From: Qipengyuania intermedia
GTDB lineage: Bacteria; Pseudomonadota; Alphaproteobacteria; Sphingomonadales; Sphingomonadaceae
Reading direction: 5' to 3'
Assembly: GCF_019711615.1 (NCBI RefSeq)
Contig: NZ_JAIGNS010000002.1
Location: 421,501 to 485,500 of the forward strand
Length of the DNA stretch: 64,000 nucleotides
Position 1 is the stretch's first letter. The number at the start of each line of letters is the position of its first letter. The notes under the pieces are model-generated. The model saw only the letters and a list, made by a program, of their open reading frames with translations. It did not search any database and had not been told where the DNA came from. Shown in pieces: positions 567 to 6,876 of the stretch. A program made the translations under genes and the position numbers.

Positions 567-1967
567 TTGCCGGTCGCACAATTTACGTCTGCCGAATGGC
601 TTGCGTTGCTTCAGCACGAGCTGCTGCTGCTTGCCGCGGTATTCTTCACAATCGGACTGATCGACGAACTCGCGATCGACCTCACCTATGGCTGGCTGAG
701 GCTTACGGGAAGAGCGAAACCGGTGGAGGTGGGGAGCAGCGGATATGCTCGCCAGGACCTTTCCGGAATGGCTGCCGTGTTCATTCCCGCATGGGAAGAA
801 GATGCCGTGATCGGGCCGACCCTAGCCCATGCGCTCGCAGCCTGGCCGCAGGACGATGTGCGCATATATGTCGGTTGTTATCGCAACGACCCGGCGACGA
901 TCGCCTCCGTGGCGGTCGCAGCGCGTCAGGACAATCGGATCCGCGTCGTGATCGTCGGTGACGACGGGCCGACCAGCAAGGCGCACTGCCTCAACCGTCT
1001 CTATCAGGCGCTATGCGATGACGAGGCGCGGCTGCGGACCAAGGCGCATATGGTCGTGCTCCACGATGCGGAGGATATGGTCGATCCTGTCGCGCTTGTC
1101 CTGCTCGACAGGGCGATCTGGCAGGACGACTTCGTGCAATTGCCGGTCATGGCGCTGCCGCAATCCGATTCACCCTGGATCGCGGGCCATTATTCGGACG
1201 AATTCGCGGAATCTCATGCCAAAGCCATGGTCGTACGAGATGCTCTCGGCGTTTCTGTGCCGGGGGCAGGCGTCGGTTCGGCGATCAGACGCTCGATGCT
1301 CGCTCGCCTGGCGCAGAGACATGAAGGCGGACCCTTCGCGGCCGCATCGCTGACGGAAGACTACGAGCTGGGCCAGCGGATCGGAGCGCTCGGCGGCACG
1401 GGCCGTTTCCTGCGTGCACGGACCGCCCACGGCAGGCTGGTGGCGACACGGGCGTTTTTCCCGTCCGACCTGTCTGCGGCCGTCCGGCAGAAAACCCGCT
1501 GGACCCACGGAATTGCTCTACAGGGATGGGACCGGCTCGGCTGGCGCGGCTCGTTGATGGAACGCTGGATGACCCTGCGCGACAGGCGCGGGCCGATGGC
1601 AGCGCTGGTTCTCGCCGTCGCCTACTTGCTGGTGCTGGTGTCCGTGATCTCGCAGGTTTCCGCGGCCGCCGGACTGATCGCACCCATCGAACCGTCACCG
1701 CTACTGCAGGCATTGCTCGTCTTTACAATGTTGGGCCTGTTCTGGCGATTGGCCATGCGGGCGCTTTTCACCGGACGCGAGTACGGGTTGAAGCAGGGAC
1801 TGCTCGCGATACCGCGGGTCGTCGTCTCCAACGTGATCGCCATCATGAGCGGACGCCGCGCGCTCGTGGCATATTGGCGCAGCCTGCGCGGGGCGCCGAT
1901 CGTGTGGGACAAGACCCAGCATCACGACCATCCCTCTCTCGCGGCTCCATCGGCAGCCTACGCATGA
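567..1967 (+). CDS. NfrB-like family 2 glycosyltransferase lacking the C-terminal regulatory domain
   Basis: Predicted inner-membrane processive glycosyltransferase. It has one membrane segment near residues 16-36, a GT-A catalytic domain, then several C-terminal membrane segments. Motifs in order: IPAWEE, GPTSKAHCLN, HDAED (about 166-170), TEDY (about 263-266) and QKTRW (about 308-312, the QxxRW signature). As I recall it, the protein follows the N-terminal half of E. coli NfrB (phage N4 adsorption protein B) closely, down to a final WDKTQH, then stops; NfrB continues into a MshEN-type domain. Start: TTG 567 has AGGGGG 8 bases upstream and gives a normal N-terminus; ATG 531 or GTG 513 would add 12 or 18 residues. 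The stop overlaps the next ATG (ATGA), so the two are coupled. Confidence 0.85.
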   Translation: MPVAQFTSAEWLALLQHELLLLAAVFFTIGLIDELAIDLTYGWLRLTGRAKPVEVGSSGYARQDLSGMAAVFIPAWEEDAVIGPTLAHALAAWPQDDVRIYVGCYRNDPATIASVAVAARQDNRIRVVIVGDDGPTSKAHCLNRLYQALCDDEARLRTKAHMVVLHDAEDMVDPVALVLLDRAIWQDDFVQLPVMALPQSDSPWIAGHYSDEFAESHAKAMVVRDALGVSVPGAGVGSAIRRSMLARLAQRHEGGPFAAASLTEDYELGQRIGALGGTGRFLRARTAHGRLVATRAFFPSDLSAAVRQKTRWTHGIALQGWDRLGWRGSLMERWMTLRDRRGPMAALVLAVAYLLVLVSVISQVSAAAGLIAPIEPSPLLQALLVFTMLGLFWRLAMRALFTGREYGLKQGLLAIPRVVVSNVIAIMSGRRALVAYWRSLRGAPIVWDKTQHHDHPSLAAPSAAYA

Positions 1968-3076
1968 GTCATTCTGCCACGACAAGGCGCGGACAGCCGC
2001 TGGTTTTCCTGCTCGTCCTCCTTGGCGGCTGGATGACGTTGAGGCTGGCGATGTGGGAGAACCCGTGGCCTCAGGAAATACTGCGTACCATCGGCCAGCC
2101 GGCGCAGGATCGACCGGGTGCGCTCTATGACCGCGCGATCGCAGAGGCCCAGAAGCCGTCAGCCCTGATCGACGCTCCACCTGTGGCGATGCCAGTCTCA
2201 CTGACCGCTCCGCCACCGTCGATACTGCCGGCAAGCGGCGATCGCCCGTCGGGTTTCGCCCCCGGCAGGTCGATGACCGGGCATAACCTCGTGTGGATGG
2301 CCGCCATGTCCCGCTTGCCGATGCCGACCAGCGTCGCCGAGGCCCTCGACCGGAGTTCGAGAGTGGAGCGCGCGGCAGTGCCGCTGCCACAATCCGTCCG
2401 CGAGGATCGCAAGCCTTGGCGGTTCGATGGATGGGTTCTGCTGCGCGGCGCCGGAAAGACGGCATTTTCAGGCGGCGAACGGCCAGCGAGCTACGGGGGC
2501 AGCCAGCTTGGAGGCGTGCTTGCCTATCATCTCGATGGTGCGTCCGGTCACGATCCGGCGCTTTACCTGAGGGCCAGCGCAGCCTTGCGCGAGCCGCTTG
2601 AAACCGAGGCGGCTTTTGGTCTGCGTGCCCGACCCGTTGGTGATTTACCGGTCACTTTCCACGCAGAGGCGCGTCTTTCAGAGCGTCGGGGACGAGCGGA
2701 GGTGCGCCCGGCTGTCTTCGCAACCGTGGGCTTCGAGCGCAAAAGCCTTCCCCTTGGGATCGGCATGCGCGGCTACGCGCAGGCAGGCTATGTCGCCGGA
2801 CGCGATGCAAGCGCCTTTGTCGACGGGCTGGCCGTTGCAGAGCGCGAAGTGGCACGCTTCGACCTTGCGGCGGTGAATGCCGATGTTCGTGCAGGCGCCG
2901 GCATATGGGGCGGAGCACAGAAGGGCGCGAGCCGTCTCGATGTCGGCCCTTCGACGAGCATGGATCTGCGCGTTGGCGAGGTATCCGCGCGCGTTTCGCT
3001 CGATTACCGGATCCGTGTCGCCGGCGATGCCGAACCTGAAAACGGACCGGCTTTTACCCTTTCGACGGGCTTTTGA
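1964..3076 (+). CDS. Putative outer-membrane beta-barrel partner of the NfrB-like enzyme (NfrA C-terminal-like)
   Basis: About 370 residues, starting at an ATG inside the stop of the preceding glycosyltransferase gene. Residues about 13-32 form one hydrophobic helix (signal or anchor), followed by a Pro/Ala-rich linker. From about residue 155 the sequence alternates polar and hydrophobic residues in short strands (LYLRASAALREPL, GMRGYAQAGYVAG, AGAGIWGGAQKGASRLDVG) and ends in ...LSTGF. A terminal Phe is typical of outer-membrane barrels. Pattern and gene order recall the C-terminal domain of NfrA, the outer-membrane partner of NfrB, but the TPR part of NfrA is absent. Role in polysaccharide export is inference; no close family is recognised with certainty. 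Confidence 0.6.
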   Translation: MSHSATTRRGQPLVFLLVLLGGWMTLRLAMWENPWPQEILRTIGQPAQDRPGALYDRAIAEAQKPSALIDAPPVAMPVSLTAPPPSILPASGDRPSGFAPGRSMTGHNLVWMAAMSRLPMPTSVAEALDRSSRVERAAVPLPQSVREDRKPWRFDGWVLLRGAGKTAFSGGERPASYGGSQLGGVLAYHLDGASGHDPALYLRASAALREPLETEAAFGLRARPVGDLPVTFHAEARLSERRGRAEVRPAVFATVGFERKSLPLGIGMRGYAQAGYVAGRDASAFVDGLAVAEREVARFDLAAVNADVRAGAGIWGGAQKGASRLDVGPSTSMDLRVGEVSARVSLDYRIRVAGDAEPENGPAFTLSTGF

Positions 3077-3122: not shown

Positions 3123-4028
3123 ATGGATGTCTACCTCCCCATTGCAAACCTGTCCGTCGACGGACTGGTAATCGTCGCGCTCGGGGCGCTGACGGGCATC
3201 CTGTCCGGCCTGTTCGGCGTGGGCGGCGGCTTTCTGACCACGCCGCTGCTGATCTTTTACGGCATCCCCCCGACTGTGGCTGCAGCCTCTGCTTCGACCC
3301 AGGTCACCGGCGCCAGCGTCTCCGGCGTGATCGCCCATTCCAAGCGTCGCGGCGTCGATTATCGCATGGGCGCCGTCATGATCGGCGGCGGCGTGATCGG
3401 GTCCGGCTTCGGAGCGCTGCTGTTCAATTTCTTCCGCTCGATTGGCCAGATCGACGTGGTGATTAATGCGCTCTACGTCGTTCTCCTGGGTTCGATCGGC
3501 TTGCTGATGGCGAAGGAGGCGATCCAGACATTGCGCGGGACCGGCGGGTCGCAGGCCGCGCGGCGGCGCCACCACCCGCTTGTCGCCAGCCTTCCGTTCC
3601 GCTGGAGGTTTTACGGGTCAGGCCTTTATATTTCTCCGCTAGCGCCGTTAATCGTGGGTATCGTGGTCGGCATACTGACCATGCTGATGGGCGTAGGCGG
3701 CGGGTTCATCCTCGTACCCGCCATGCTTTATATCCTGGGCATGAGCGCGAATGTCGTTGTCGGCACCAGCCTGTTCAACATCCTTTTTGTTACCATCGCG
3801 ACCACCATCATGCACTCGGTCACGACGCGAGCGGTCGACATCGTTCTGGTCGCGCTGCTGCTGCTGGGTTCGGTCTCGGGCGCGCAGATCGGCTCGCAAT
3901 TCGCAGTGAAGGCCAAGCCGGAGGCGCTGCGTCTCGTCCTCGCCGCCATCGTGCTGCTGGTGGCCTTCCGCATGTTCCTCGGCCTGTTTTACCGGCCCGA
4001 TGAAATCTACACGGTCTACCCGCTGTGA
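3123..4028 (+). CDS. Sulfite exporter TauE/SafE family membrane protein
   Basis: 301-residue polytopic inner-membrane protein with two copies of the family repeat: a first half with GILSGLFGVGGGFLTTPLL (about residues 24-42) and a second half with ILTMLMGVGGGFILVPAML (about 182-200). These glycine-rich GVGGGF turns are the TauE/SafE hallmark. Members export sulfite, sulfoacetate or similar anions; the substrate here is unknown. Its stop overlaps the GTG start of the next gene (GTGA), and that neighbour belongs to a family repeatedly found beside TauE genes in alphaproteobacteria, so the two probably act together. Confidence 0.9.
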   Translation: MDVYLPIANLSVDGLVIVALGALTGILSGLFGVGGGFLTTPLLIFYGIPPTVAAASASTQVTGASVSGVIAHSKRRGVDYRMGAVMIGGGVIGSGFGALLFNFFRSIGQIDVVINALYVVLLGSIGLLMAKEAIQTLRGTGGSQAARRRHHPLVASLPFRWRFYGSGLYISPLAPLIVGIVVGILTMLMGVGGGFILVPAMLYILGMSANVVVGTSLFNILFVTIATTIMHSVTTRAVDIVLVALLLLGSVSGAQIGSQFAVKAKPEALRLVLAAIVLLVAFRMFLGLFYRPDEIYTVYPL

Positions 4029-4774
4029 GGGCGGCATTGCTCCTTGTTGCTGCCTTCTTCCTGATGGGGCAGCGCGATCCGGTCCTCGTTCCGGAAGTCT
4101 CGCAGCACGAGGTGCAGGTGAGGCAGGGCTTCGTTGGCCAGGAATTGCTGCTGTTCGGCGCCGTCCTCGACCCTGCGGGCCGGGCGGGACAGGACTATGA
4201 CATCGTCGTGGTCCTCAAGGGGCCGAGCGAACCGATCCGCCTGCGCGAGAAAGAGCGTTTCATCGGAGTCTGGGTGAATGCGGAGAGCAGCGATTTCCGC
4301 TCCGTGCCCAGCTATTTCGCGGTCGCCTCCTCTCGCCCGATTACCGAGATCGTCGATGACAAGACGGCTGCGATTTACGAATTCGGCACGAACTACATCC
4401 AGTTGTCGCCCAGCGGATCTTTCGATCCTGAAGAGCAGCGGCGTTTTGCCGCAGGCCTCGTGGACCTAAAGCGCAGGCTCGGCCTGTACCGCGAAGATTT
4501 CGGCGGCGTGCAGATCAGCGAAAGCGTGCTCTACCAGGCCCGCATCGAACTCCCCTCCAACGTGACGACCGGCACTTATACCGCAGAGACATTCGCCGTC
4601 ACGAGAGGCCGCGTGATTGCCTCGGCCGTCTCGGAGGTCGAGGTAAAGAAGGTCGGTTTCGAACGTTTCGTCGAGGACAGCGCAAACGAATGGGGTCTTG
4701 CCTACGGCCTCATCGCCGTGCTGCTGTCGGTCGGAATGGGCTGGGGCGCGGGTCGCCTGTTCGCCCGTCTCTGA
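4025..4774 (+). CDS. TIGR02186-type conserved membrane-anchored protein
   Basis: 249 residues. An N-terminal signal-like helix (about 3-15) leads to a predicted periplasmic beta-rich domain and one C-terminal membrane helix (about 226-246, WGLAYGLIAVLLSVGMGWGAG). Phrases such as FIGVWVNAES, VPSYFAVASSRPI and LYQARIELPSNVTTGTYTAE fit the alphaproteobacterial family TIGR02186, which has no assigned biochemical role. The GTG start lies inside the TauE stop codon, implying co-translation. It probably assists the TauE-type exporter, for example as a periplasmic stalk; that is inference from context. Confidence 0.8.
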   Translation: MRAALLLVAAFFLMGQRDPVLVPEVSQHEVQVRQGFVGQELLLFGAVLDPAGRAGQDYDIVVVLKGPSEPIRLREKERFIGVWVNAESSDFRSVPSYFAVASSRPITEIVDDKTAAIYEFGTNYIQLSPSGSFDPEEQRRFAAGLVDLKRRLGLYREDFGGVQISESVLYQARIELPSNVTTGTYTAETFAVTRGRVIASAVSEVEVKKVGFERFVEDSANEWGLAYGLIAVLLSVGMGWGAGRLFARL

Positions 4775-4872
4775 GGCCAGATTCCCGTTCATCGTTGACG
4801 CGATTTTAACCGTTCTGCGGCATTCCACCCCTGCAATTTTGCGTGATCTGCACGAGGGATGTGGGCCGAGTT

Positions 4873-6876
4873 ATGAACGACATGAGCAAGGGCAATTTCC
4901 GGACTTTCGACCCGGCAAAGGAAGACGGCGCGGAGCCGCCGCAGCCGCGGGGGAACAGCCTGCGTGACCGCATTCGCCGTTCCGAACAGTCCCAGCAACC
5001 CGCTCCTGCTGCATCGCGTTCCGGCTATGTGCACCAGCCCCAAACGCAGCCTCAGGCTCAGCCGGAAGTCGAATCTCCGGCTACAAGCGCCCATCAGCCC
5101 GCCCCGCAGGAAGCTGCCGCCCCTCGGCAGGATCATGCGCCCGCTCCTGCCCAGGAACAGGCCGAACGCCCGGTGCCGCAACCTGCACCCCGCCAAGAGG
5201 CGGCACCCGCGCCCGTCGCCGCTCCTGCCGAGCCGCAGCAAAGCCGTAACGAAGCCCCCGAGCAGGGAAGCGACAGCGACAATGCGATGCAGCCCATTGG
5301 CGTGGTCCTCGAAATCGCAGGCTCCGGCTCGCAGGTAGCCATCGACCTGCAGCGCCTGACCGAATGCGCCGACGACAGCGATCCGTCCGTTGCCATGGCC
5401 GGCCAGGTCGGTTCGCAAATCAAGATCCGCGTCGGCAACAGCTGGCTGCTCGCCAGCGTCCGCAACCAGAAACAGGACCGCAAGGCGGGCAGCATCCTCG
5501 CCAATATCGACTTCCTCGGCGAAGGCGTGGAAGAGAAGCTGACCGGCAGGCTCCACGGCTTCCGCCGCGGTGTGACCCGCTACCCGGTCCCCGGCGCGCT
5601 GGTCTATCCCGCAAGCACCGCCGACCTCAAACAGGTCTATGCCAGCGATGGCCGCAGCGCGGTCACCATCGGCAAGGTCTATCCGACCAAGGACATTCGC
5701 GCCGGCATCTATGTCGATGCGATGCTGGGCAAGCACTTCGCCCTCCTCGGTTCGACCGGTACGGGTAAATCGACCAGTGCAGCCCTGATCCTTCACCGGA
5801 TCTGCGAGGCAGCGCCCGAAGGTCACATCGTCATGATCGACCCCCACGGCGAGTACGCTTCCGCATTCCGCCAGACCGGCGTCATCCTCGACGTGTCGAA
5901 CCTGCAGATGCCCTACTGGATCATGAACTTCGAAGAGCATTGCGAAGTCCTGCTGACCAGCAATGGTAACGACCGGCAGATCGACGCGGATATCCTCGCC
6001 CGCTGCCTGCTGAAGGCGCGCCAGAAAAGCCGCCTTGCCGAACAGATGGGCAAGATAACGGTGGATTCGCCCATTCCGTACCTGCTGTCGGACCTGTCGA
6101 ACGCGATCCAAGACGCGATGGGCAAGCTCGACAAGGCAACCAACTCCGCACCTTACATGCGGATCAAGAACAAGCTCGAGGAGCTCAAGACCGACCCGCG
6201 CTACCAGTTCATGTTCTCCGGCATGCTGGTCGCCGACACGATGGCCGACTTCATCTCCAAGATCTTCCGCATGCCCGCTGGCGGCAAGCCGATCTCGATC
6301 ATCGACGTCTCGGGCGTGCCTTCGGACATCACCTCGACCGTGGTTGCCGTGCTCAGCCGCCTCGTGTTCGACTTCGCGATCTGGGGCCGCGAGGAAAAAA
6401 CTACGCCGATCCTCCTCGTTTGCGAGGAAGCGCACCGTTACGTGCCGAGCGAGAAGAACGCCGACGGCAACTCTGTCGGCACCATCCTGTCGCGGATCGC
6501 GAAGGAAGGTCGTAAGTACGGCATCAGCCTCGGCCTCATCACGCAGCGTCCGTCCGACCTTGCAGAAGGCGTGCTGTCGCAGTGCGGTACGATCATCTCC
6601 ATGCGTCTCAACAACGACCGCGACCAGGACTTCGTGCGCGCCGCGATGCCCGAAGGTGCGCGCGGTTTTCTCGATGCCATTCCCGCGCTCCGCAACCGCG
6701 AGTGCATCATTTGCGGCGAGGGTGTCGCCATCCCGATCCGCGTCAGCTTCGACAATCTCGAAGAGGTCAAGCGCCCGGCTTCGGAAGACCCGAGTTTCGT
6801 CGAGATGTGGAGCCAGAGCGGCGGCGAGGAGGACATCGTCCAGCGGACCGTCCAGCGCTGGCGCAGCCAGGGTTAG
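4873..6876 (+). CDS. HerA-like ATPase (DUF87) with Pro/Gln-rich N-terminus
   Basis: About 667 residues. The first 130 or so are very rich in Pro, Gln and Ala and look disordered. A HerA barrel-like domain follows, then a hexameric RecA-fold ATPase: Walker A GSTGTGKS (about 294-301), MIDPHGEYASAF, Walker B LLVCEEAHRY (about 513-522), and a C-terminal arginine region (SMRLNNDRDQDFVRAAMPEG). HerA family members translocate DNA, in other lineages with the nuclease NurA; no nuclease gene is adjacent here. Start: ATG 4873 (MNDMSKG) is preferred over the upstream GTG 4843; ATG 4882 is also possible. It is read toward queE, with a hairpin-rich spacer between. Confidence 0.88.
   Translation: MNDMSKGNFRTFDPAKEDGAEPPQPRGNSLRDRIRRSEQSQQPAPAASRSGYVHQPQTQPQAQPEVESPATSAHQPAPQEAAAPRQDHAPAPAQEQAERPVPQPAPRQEAAPAPVAAPAEPQQSRNEAPEQGSDSDNAMQPIGVVLEIAGSGSQVAIDLQRLTECADDSDPSVAMAGQVGSQIKIRVGNSWLLASVRNQKQDRKAGSILANIDFLGEGVEEKLTGRLHGFRRGVTRYPVPGALVYPASTADLKQVYASDGRSAVTIGKVYPTKDIRAGIYVDAMLGKHFALLGSTGTGKSTSAALILHRICEAAPEGHIVMIDPHGEYASAFRQTGVILDVSNLQMPYWIMNFEEHCEVLLTSNGNDRQIDADILARCLLKARQKSRLAEQMGKITVDSPIPYLLSDLSNAIQDAMGKLDKATNSAPYMRIKNKLEELKTDPRYQFMFSGMLVADTMADFISKIFRMPAGGKPISIIDVSGVPSDITSTVVAVLSRLVFDFAIWGREEKTTPILLVCEEAHRYVPSEKNADGNSVGTILSRIAKEGRKYGISLGLITQRPSDLAEGVLSQCGTIISMRLNNDRDQDFVRAAMPEGARGFLDAIPALRNRECIICGEGVAIPIRVSFDNLEEVKRPASEDPSFVEMWSQSGGEEDIVQRTVQRWRSQG

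Follow-up and report, generated by a model that had tools for sequence, protein, structure and literature searches.

A short NfrB-like glycosyltransferase paired with a predicted anchor-and-barrel protein in Qipengyuania intermedia and other Sphingomonadaceae

Introduction

The closest described system to the locus reported here is NfrB-NfrA of Escherichia coli, which makes the N4 glycan receptor and consists of a glycosyltransferase with the same order of core motifs and an adjacent gene for a barrel protein (PMC8669469, PMC8669472). An MshEN domain is carried by 1,705 of 1,841 NfrB homologues (PMC8669469), so that homologues without this domain are already in print and, together with the named family NF011307, make a short NfrB a known kind of protein. 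The pair described here differs from the E. coli system in that its glycosyltransferase (hereafter GT) is without MshEN and the partner (hereafter P2) is without a match to tetratricopeptide (TPR) repeats or NfrA_C and starts with an anchor-like stretch, not a classical signal sequence; homology between the two barrels is transitive.

Other systems offer partial likenesses. In BcsA-BcsB, the partner BcsB is anchored at the synthase (PMC5727187), as we propose for P2, and the GT resembles BcsA in fold only, sequence kinship not being claimed. The short glycosyltransferases of NF011307 (the PRK14716 group) include the GT as a member, and their model covers the GT only, not P2. In BcsA-BcsB and PgaA-type systems the synthase partner and the exporter are separate proteins, and the exporters of other systems of this sort have 16-18 strands, so that the predicted 12-stranded barrel of P2 would be smaller. 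The TonB-like layout consists of an anchor, a proline-rich linker and a C-terminal domain; P2 shares this layout alone, ending in a barrel and not in a small docking domain, and no homology is claimed. To our knowledge, an uncleaved inner-membrane anchor on an outer-membrane barrel is without settled precedent, and our search of open-licence literature found neither a paper on the GT-P2 pair in sphingomonads nor a clear precedent for an inner-membrane-anchored barrel exporter.

Here, we analyse the pair in a stretch of 64,000 nucleotides (the window) from contig NZ_JAIGNS010000002.1 of Qipengyuania intermedia, and follow it through its genus, family and class. We see an even chance that it represents a sphingomonad form of the Nfr synthase-exporter pair in which the barrel partner has an inner-membrane anchor and may reach across the envelope. 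The pair is counted with the Nfr kind as a variant, not as NfrB-NfrA proper.

The locus and its distribution

The features are as follows (window positions; aa, residues of the protein):

567..1967, + strand, GT gene, 466 aa, short NfrB-like enzyme of the NF011307 family, without MshEN
1062..1076, + strand, HDAED, DxD-type motif, aa 166-170
1353..1361, + strand, TED, aa 263-265 (TEDY is 263-266)
1488..1502, + strand, QKTRW, the QxxRW motif of processive enzymes, aa 308-312
1905..1922, + strand, WDKTQH, near the end of the GT, aa 447-452
1964..1967, + strand, ATGA shared by the GT stop and the P2 start, read in the sequence
1964..3076, + strand, P2 gene, 370 aa, with anchor, proline-rich linker and predicted barrel
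1988..2071, + strand, conserved N-terminal membrane anchor of P2, aa 9-36, with G10, P12, W23, R27 and W31
2072..2416, + strand, variable proline-rich linker, aa 37-151
2276..2311, + strand, linker motif TGHNLVWMAAMS, aa 105-116, in a predicted helix (103-115), kept in barrel-less relatives
2417..3073, + strand, predicted 12-stranded barrel domain, ending in Phe, aa 152-370

The GT starts with TTG, and its coupling to P2 by ATGA, read earlier from the sequence alone, is present at 1964-1967; GT and P2 are real, coupled genes. The genome comprises 2,697,527 bases in 4 contigs. Upstream of the GT, on the minus strand, lies what we take by eye from the sequence to be an NhaA-type gene. P2 is followed by a gene for a TauE/SafE-type permease (3123-4028) and one for a TIGR02186 protein (4025-4774; PF09608 of Pfam over its cut-off, the NCBIfam model under its own), after which the domain scan places a HerA central domain protein. 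This order, from the NhaA-type gene on the other strand through GT, P2, permease and TIGR02186 to the HerA-type gene, is conserved (window 3123-6876; loci L095-L174). Among the best 80 of 361 GT loci, some of them clipped by contig ends, the permease is present in 77 and NhaA in 72, and the nearest named relatives by GT are Qipengyuania aquimaris (87% identity) and Q. nanhaisediminis (86%).

P2 was found in 162 of 199 genomes of the bacterial family by a single-sequence search. The P2 profile was built from 48 rows out of 52 P2s, 49 of which fitted the anchor pattern; left out were a fragment, a piece after a stop, one sequence with Phe off the pattern (judged by eye) and L012. Across the class, this profile matched 3 of 240 genomes, all of the same family and including the genome under study. 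P2 is thus common in one family, and none was seen outside it in the 240-genome sample. In the same 240 genomes the GT model scored over its cut-off in the same 3 and below it in 17 more, seven of these at about 299-376 bits; six of the seven were scanned, with MshEN found in L242, L243 and L246 and none in L241, L244 and L245. Among viral contigs, 25 stretches fitted the single pattern used, none of them a relative of P2.

The pairing holds from either side. A GT lies directly upstream in 30 of the 30 loci taken for the best P2 matches. Conversely, a search with the GT only gave 361 loci, and in the best 80 a P2 profile match follows on the same strand in 78, four of which are barrel-less; counting two further barrel-less P2s without a profile match (L099 and L100), a P2 gene is downstream in all 80, with the barrel in 74 and without it in 6.

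The glycosyltransferase

The four NfrB landmarks named in the sequence-only reading (HDAED, TEDY, QxxRW, here QKTRW, and WDKTQH) were located in that order in the 466-aa GT. Across 46 aligned GTs, D-A-E-D (167-170), T263-E264-D265, Q308, R311 and W312 are invariant, while 44 have His and 2 have Gln at position 166. The GT belongs to NF011307, scoring 579 bits against a cut-off of 431 with residues 8-460 on positions 9-454 of the 464 of the model. The NfrB model NF008411 reaches 280 bits against a cut-off of 1170 and is covered over positions 3-477 of 723, so that the enzyme does stop where NfrB continues into MshEN, although the DxD, TED and QxxRW motifs of NfrB are all present. By its sequence, the GT is a family-2 glycosyltransferase of the processive type, in a named short NfrB-like family.

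The AlphaFold model of the GT (mean pLDDT 90.6, pTM 0.89) contains no domain beyond WDKTQH. Its closest solved folds in Foldseek are led by the bacterial cellulose synthase BcsA, with hyaluronan synthases among the first, and the list also includes transferases with lipid or single acceptors, GtrB for example. The model has about three long hydrophobic helices (8-47, 342-367 and 378-406) and an end helix (417-440), and BcsA has more membrane helices than this. The helix count and the GtrB-like matches would suit an enzyme that adds sugar to a membrane-bound acceptor, such as a part of a lipid or lipopolysaccharide, with P2 placing or protecting it and the barrel serving a separate role, as would the nine relatives described below that manage without the barrel. 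We consider this improbable: all 46 aligned GTs keep the DxD, TED and QxxRW motifs of processive enzymes unchanged, the best folds are BcsA and hyaluronan synthase, and the barrel is retained in 48 of 60 genomes of the genus.

The family model matched 184 of 199 family genomes, 164 over the cut-off, and all 60 genomes of the genus, 55 over the cut-off, although in 3 of the 60 the sole match is a long NfrB. With matches in so many genomes, a truncated NfrB pseudogene was rejected as an explanation. The proposal of a minimal unit free of cyclic-di-GMP control survives in part: a compact synthase and barrel pair without MshEN fits the anatomy, but as a member of NF011307 the GT is no one-off truncation.

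No MshEN match (PF05157) was found in the whole Q. intermedia genome, the GT included, in a search that was positive for 5 of 14 control genomes, among them E. coli. An MshEN gene close by, completing the usual system, had been named as the observation that would overturn the minimal-unit idea; such a partner is rejected for this genome by the same whole-genome search. Within the family, MshEN matched 57 of 199 genomes, 52 over the cut-off, and among the GT matches listed it falls inside such a gene only in G194. At this second locus of G194 (L065:6644-8742, contig C2) the NfrB-like gene is split into two overlapping frames with MshEN in one and is followed by an NfrA_C protein, and the genome also holds a GT-P2 pair. 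An organism without cyclic-di-GMP is rejected by 13 GGDEF matches in the Q. intermedia genome, and given these matches cyclic-di-GMP control could still come by another protein or route.

The predicted barrel and its kinship to NfrA

P2 has no match in Pfam, NCBIfam or PHROG, and its one match to a PDB sequence (a T-cell receptor chain, E 0.1) was set aside as chance. In the AlphaFold model, residues 11-30, 103-115 and 122-135 are helical and 12 strands lie between 152 and 367, with mean pLDDT 77.5 and pTM 0.59 for the whole model and block means of at least 90 over 181-350, about 80 in the anchor and 53-58 at 161-180; the linker is low. All 50 Foldseek matches listed are membrane beta-barrels. 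The top ones are the autotransporter domains of EspP and BrkA, followed among others by LpxR, the PgaA entry 4y25 (rank 12), FapF, NanC and a designed 12-stranded barrel; scores are modest (TMq 0.34-0.37 in the best rows), and 8 matches have E <=0.001. Hydrophobicity alternates clearly in 11 of the 12 strands, in a count made without a control, and the C-terminal residue is aromatic in 63 of 64 aligned P2s. Residues 152-367 are thus predicted to form a barrel like those of outer-membrane proteins, and the structure prediction supports the earlier guess that the second protein is a barrel.

The same reading had likened P2 to the C-terminal part of NfrA without its TPR repeats. The domain scan indeed gave no TPR match, and a barrel akin to that of NfrA through intermediates is what remains of the likeness; P2 had no match to NfrA_C (PF13283) up to E 1, and its N-terminal part is an anchor and linker of its own. 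Compared directly with the profile of TPR-type NfrAs, P2 aligned end to end over the barrel at probability 4.1 and E 0.01, which is not significant. The bridge is made by L067, L071 and L072, three proteins whose genes follow a related GT in other family genomes, and which carry one TPR-like unit ahead of the barrel and, in two of the three (frames read by eye), an anchor-like N-terminal stretch. In single comparisons with these three, P2 matched over the whole barrel (E 3.9e-30) and five TPR-type NfrAs matched over the last TPR-like unit and the barrel (E 5.4e-11). Since the intermediates match both, we infer that P2 arose from an NfrA-like ancestor by loss of the TPRs. An origin from another outer-membrane protein would agree with the weak direct comparison, the absence of NfrA_C matches from the whole genome (0 found) and the autotransporter barrels as best folds, but the two intermediate matches speak against it, as does the shared position of P2, the intermediates and the NfrAs immediately after a GT of one kind; we regard such an origin as very improbable.

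In a genome outside the family (G355), locus L245 (1426-4352) encodes a short GT without an MshEN match and then a TPR protein, which makes the losses of MshEN and of the TPRs separate steps.

Anchor and linker

A conserved membrane anchor and a linker stand in P2 where NfrA has its signal peptide and TPRs. Conservation was assessed in 64 P2s, namely that of the window and 63 of 77 others, four barrel-less and ten further sequences having been omitted by eye and L151 dropped beforehand, as its match began only at model position 176; the row of L134 diverges near its end, and the start codons of one eighth of the rows come from the script only. The anchor motif G-x-P...W-x3-R is nearly invariant (G10 in 64, P12 in 63, W23 in 62 with Tyr in the other 2, R27 in 64 and W31 in 54 of 64), in rows that had passed a loose pattern beforehand ([PG], then [WYF]xxx[RK]; 77 of 78 passed). 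The sequence-only reading had not remarked on this motif. Information per column is 2.52 bits over 9-36, 0.95 over 37-100, 1.81 over 101-125 around the linker motif, 1.01 over 126-150 and 2.65 over 151-370, and the anchor is thus as conserved as the barrel. Residues 13-31 have a mean Kyte-Doolittle value of 1.91, and the linker, 91-187 aa long in the aligned P2s, contains 12.9% proline. The GHxLxWMAA motif in the linker (window 2276-2311) is the best-kept piece of the barrel-less relatives.

Outer-membrane barrels usually have a cleaved signal peptide. The N-terminus of P2 is positively charged and hydrophobic, and the TPR-type NfrAs of the same genus start with signal peptides that look ordinary by eye. 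P2 could accordingly belong to an ordinary NfrB/NfrA-like pair, its helix being an unusual signal peptide that is cleaved, so that mature P2 is a free barrel in the outer membrane, its N-terminus disordered in the periplasm. We think this unlikely, although less so than the membrane-acceptor alternative: near-invariant Gly, Pro, Trp and Arg lie in and around the helix and are conserved like the barrel, a strict AxA occurs within about 20 residues after the helix in just 12 of 64 P2s, and the anchor is retained at low pN/pS where the barrel has been lost.

A natural series within the genus

Of 60 genomes of the genus, 48 have a P2 with the barrel, 9 have a P2 without it and 3 have no GT-P2 pair, the 48 including G437 (a GT with a stop and a P2 fragment) and G458 (a split GT match). 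On contig C2 of G458 about 39 kb separate the two pieces of the GT match (L233 near 792250 and L234 near 831068) and P2 is intact, as if a large element had been inserted in the GT gene. In the three genomes without the pair (G436, G463 and G488) NhaA adjoins the permease, with no GT or P2 match between them.

The barrel-less P2s have 104-156 aa and consist of anchor and linker. Their nine genomes cluster together in the GT tree (97/92), and the barrel was therefore probably lost once. In all nine, the anchor retains G-R-P, W and R and the linker motif retains H..LW. In four close barrel-less pairs, which represent three species sets and are not independent, the anchor has a pN/pS of 0.16-0.28 and the linker one of 0.30-0.57, and in the linker motif it is 0, 0 and 0.05, with one pair unchanged. 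When all pairs of the nine are taken together, pN/pS is higher, at 0.51 for the anchor, 0.76 for the linker and 0.38 for the motif at a pS of about 0.7, which is near saturation, and we therefore place the weight on the close pairs. The anchor and the motif seem from these sequences to have a job without the barrel, and decay of the barrel-less P2 is disfavoured, as both are kept in nine genomes of one clade.

A long NfrB-like gene (frames of 700-731 aa) occurs in 5 of the 60 genomes: the three without the pair and two of the nine barrel-less ones (G439 and G489), and none of the 48 others. These canonical systems (L228-L232) have a related GT (301-321 bits to the GT profile) with a barrel protein downstream, and differ from the GT-P2 pair in the length of the gene, in MshEN, which is over its cut-off in both long genes scanned, and in the barrel protein, which has TPR, and NfrA_C over its cut-off, in all three scanned. 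Of the 12 genomes that lack the barrel or the pair, 5 thus have canonical NfrB-NfrA, against 0 of the 48 others (Fisher 1.5e-4, with the groups drawn post hoc), which suggests that GT-P2 and canonical NfrB-NfrA are able to replace each other. In a permease tree of 11 rows, the barrel-less and pair-less genomes tested also group (support 83/68), and the association may therefore reflect one event.

Proposed working of the pair

From fold and motifs, we envisage the GT in the inner membrane, where it would polymerise sugar on the cytoplasmic side and pass the chain outward. UDP-ManNAc, as in E. coli, is a possible substrate, given a gene for a WecB-type epimerase on another contig of the genome. 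The conserved N-terminal helix would keep P2 in the inner membrane, most likely packed against the GT, and as the GT model has few long hydrophobic helices the P2 helix may complete its membrane part. The proline-rich linker would span the periplasm and, if extended, be long enough to reach the outer membrane, where the 12-stranded barrel would be the exit pore or part of one. A tether in P2 would in this way do the work of NfrA's signal peptide and TPR scaffold, with no control through MshEN.

That P2 is a single polypeptide in both membranes, with its helix on the synthase, a proline-rich periplasmic cable and a 12-stranded barrel in the outer membrane, is a tentative reading to which we give somewhat less than an even chance. 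If it is true, synthesis and export would be joined covalently in a two-gene machine without TPR scaffold or MshEN. On this two-membrane reading, the halves of P2 would have separable jobs, as one clade shed the barrel and kept the anchor. Because the pair persists there without the barrel, export through P2's own barrel is not always needed, which speaks against the proposed arrangement. Further points against it are the limited confidence of the P2 model with its weak stretch at 161-180 and low linker, the modest Foldseek scores, the failure of P2 to match NfrA directly, the lack of a settled precedent for a barrel anchored in this way and the small number of strands.

Significance

The short NfrB itself is not new; new are the anchored architecture of P2, its distribution across one bacterial family and the barrel-less form that occurs naturally. 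P2, which is present in 162 of 199 genomes of the family and has so far been without any family model, gains a concrete hypothesis. A single genus offers a natural series of full pair, barrel-less pair, no pair and canonical NfrB-NfrA, which makes two questions accessible to test: can a polymer travel between the synthase and a pore in the outer membrane when no TPR scaffold is present, and can a barrel still insert in the outer membrane while its protein keeps an uncleaved inner-membrane anchor? If the proposed arrangement is true, the pair would be among the simplest trans-envelope polysaccharide machines.
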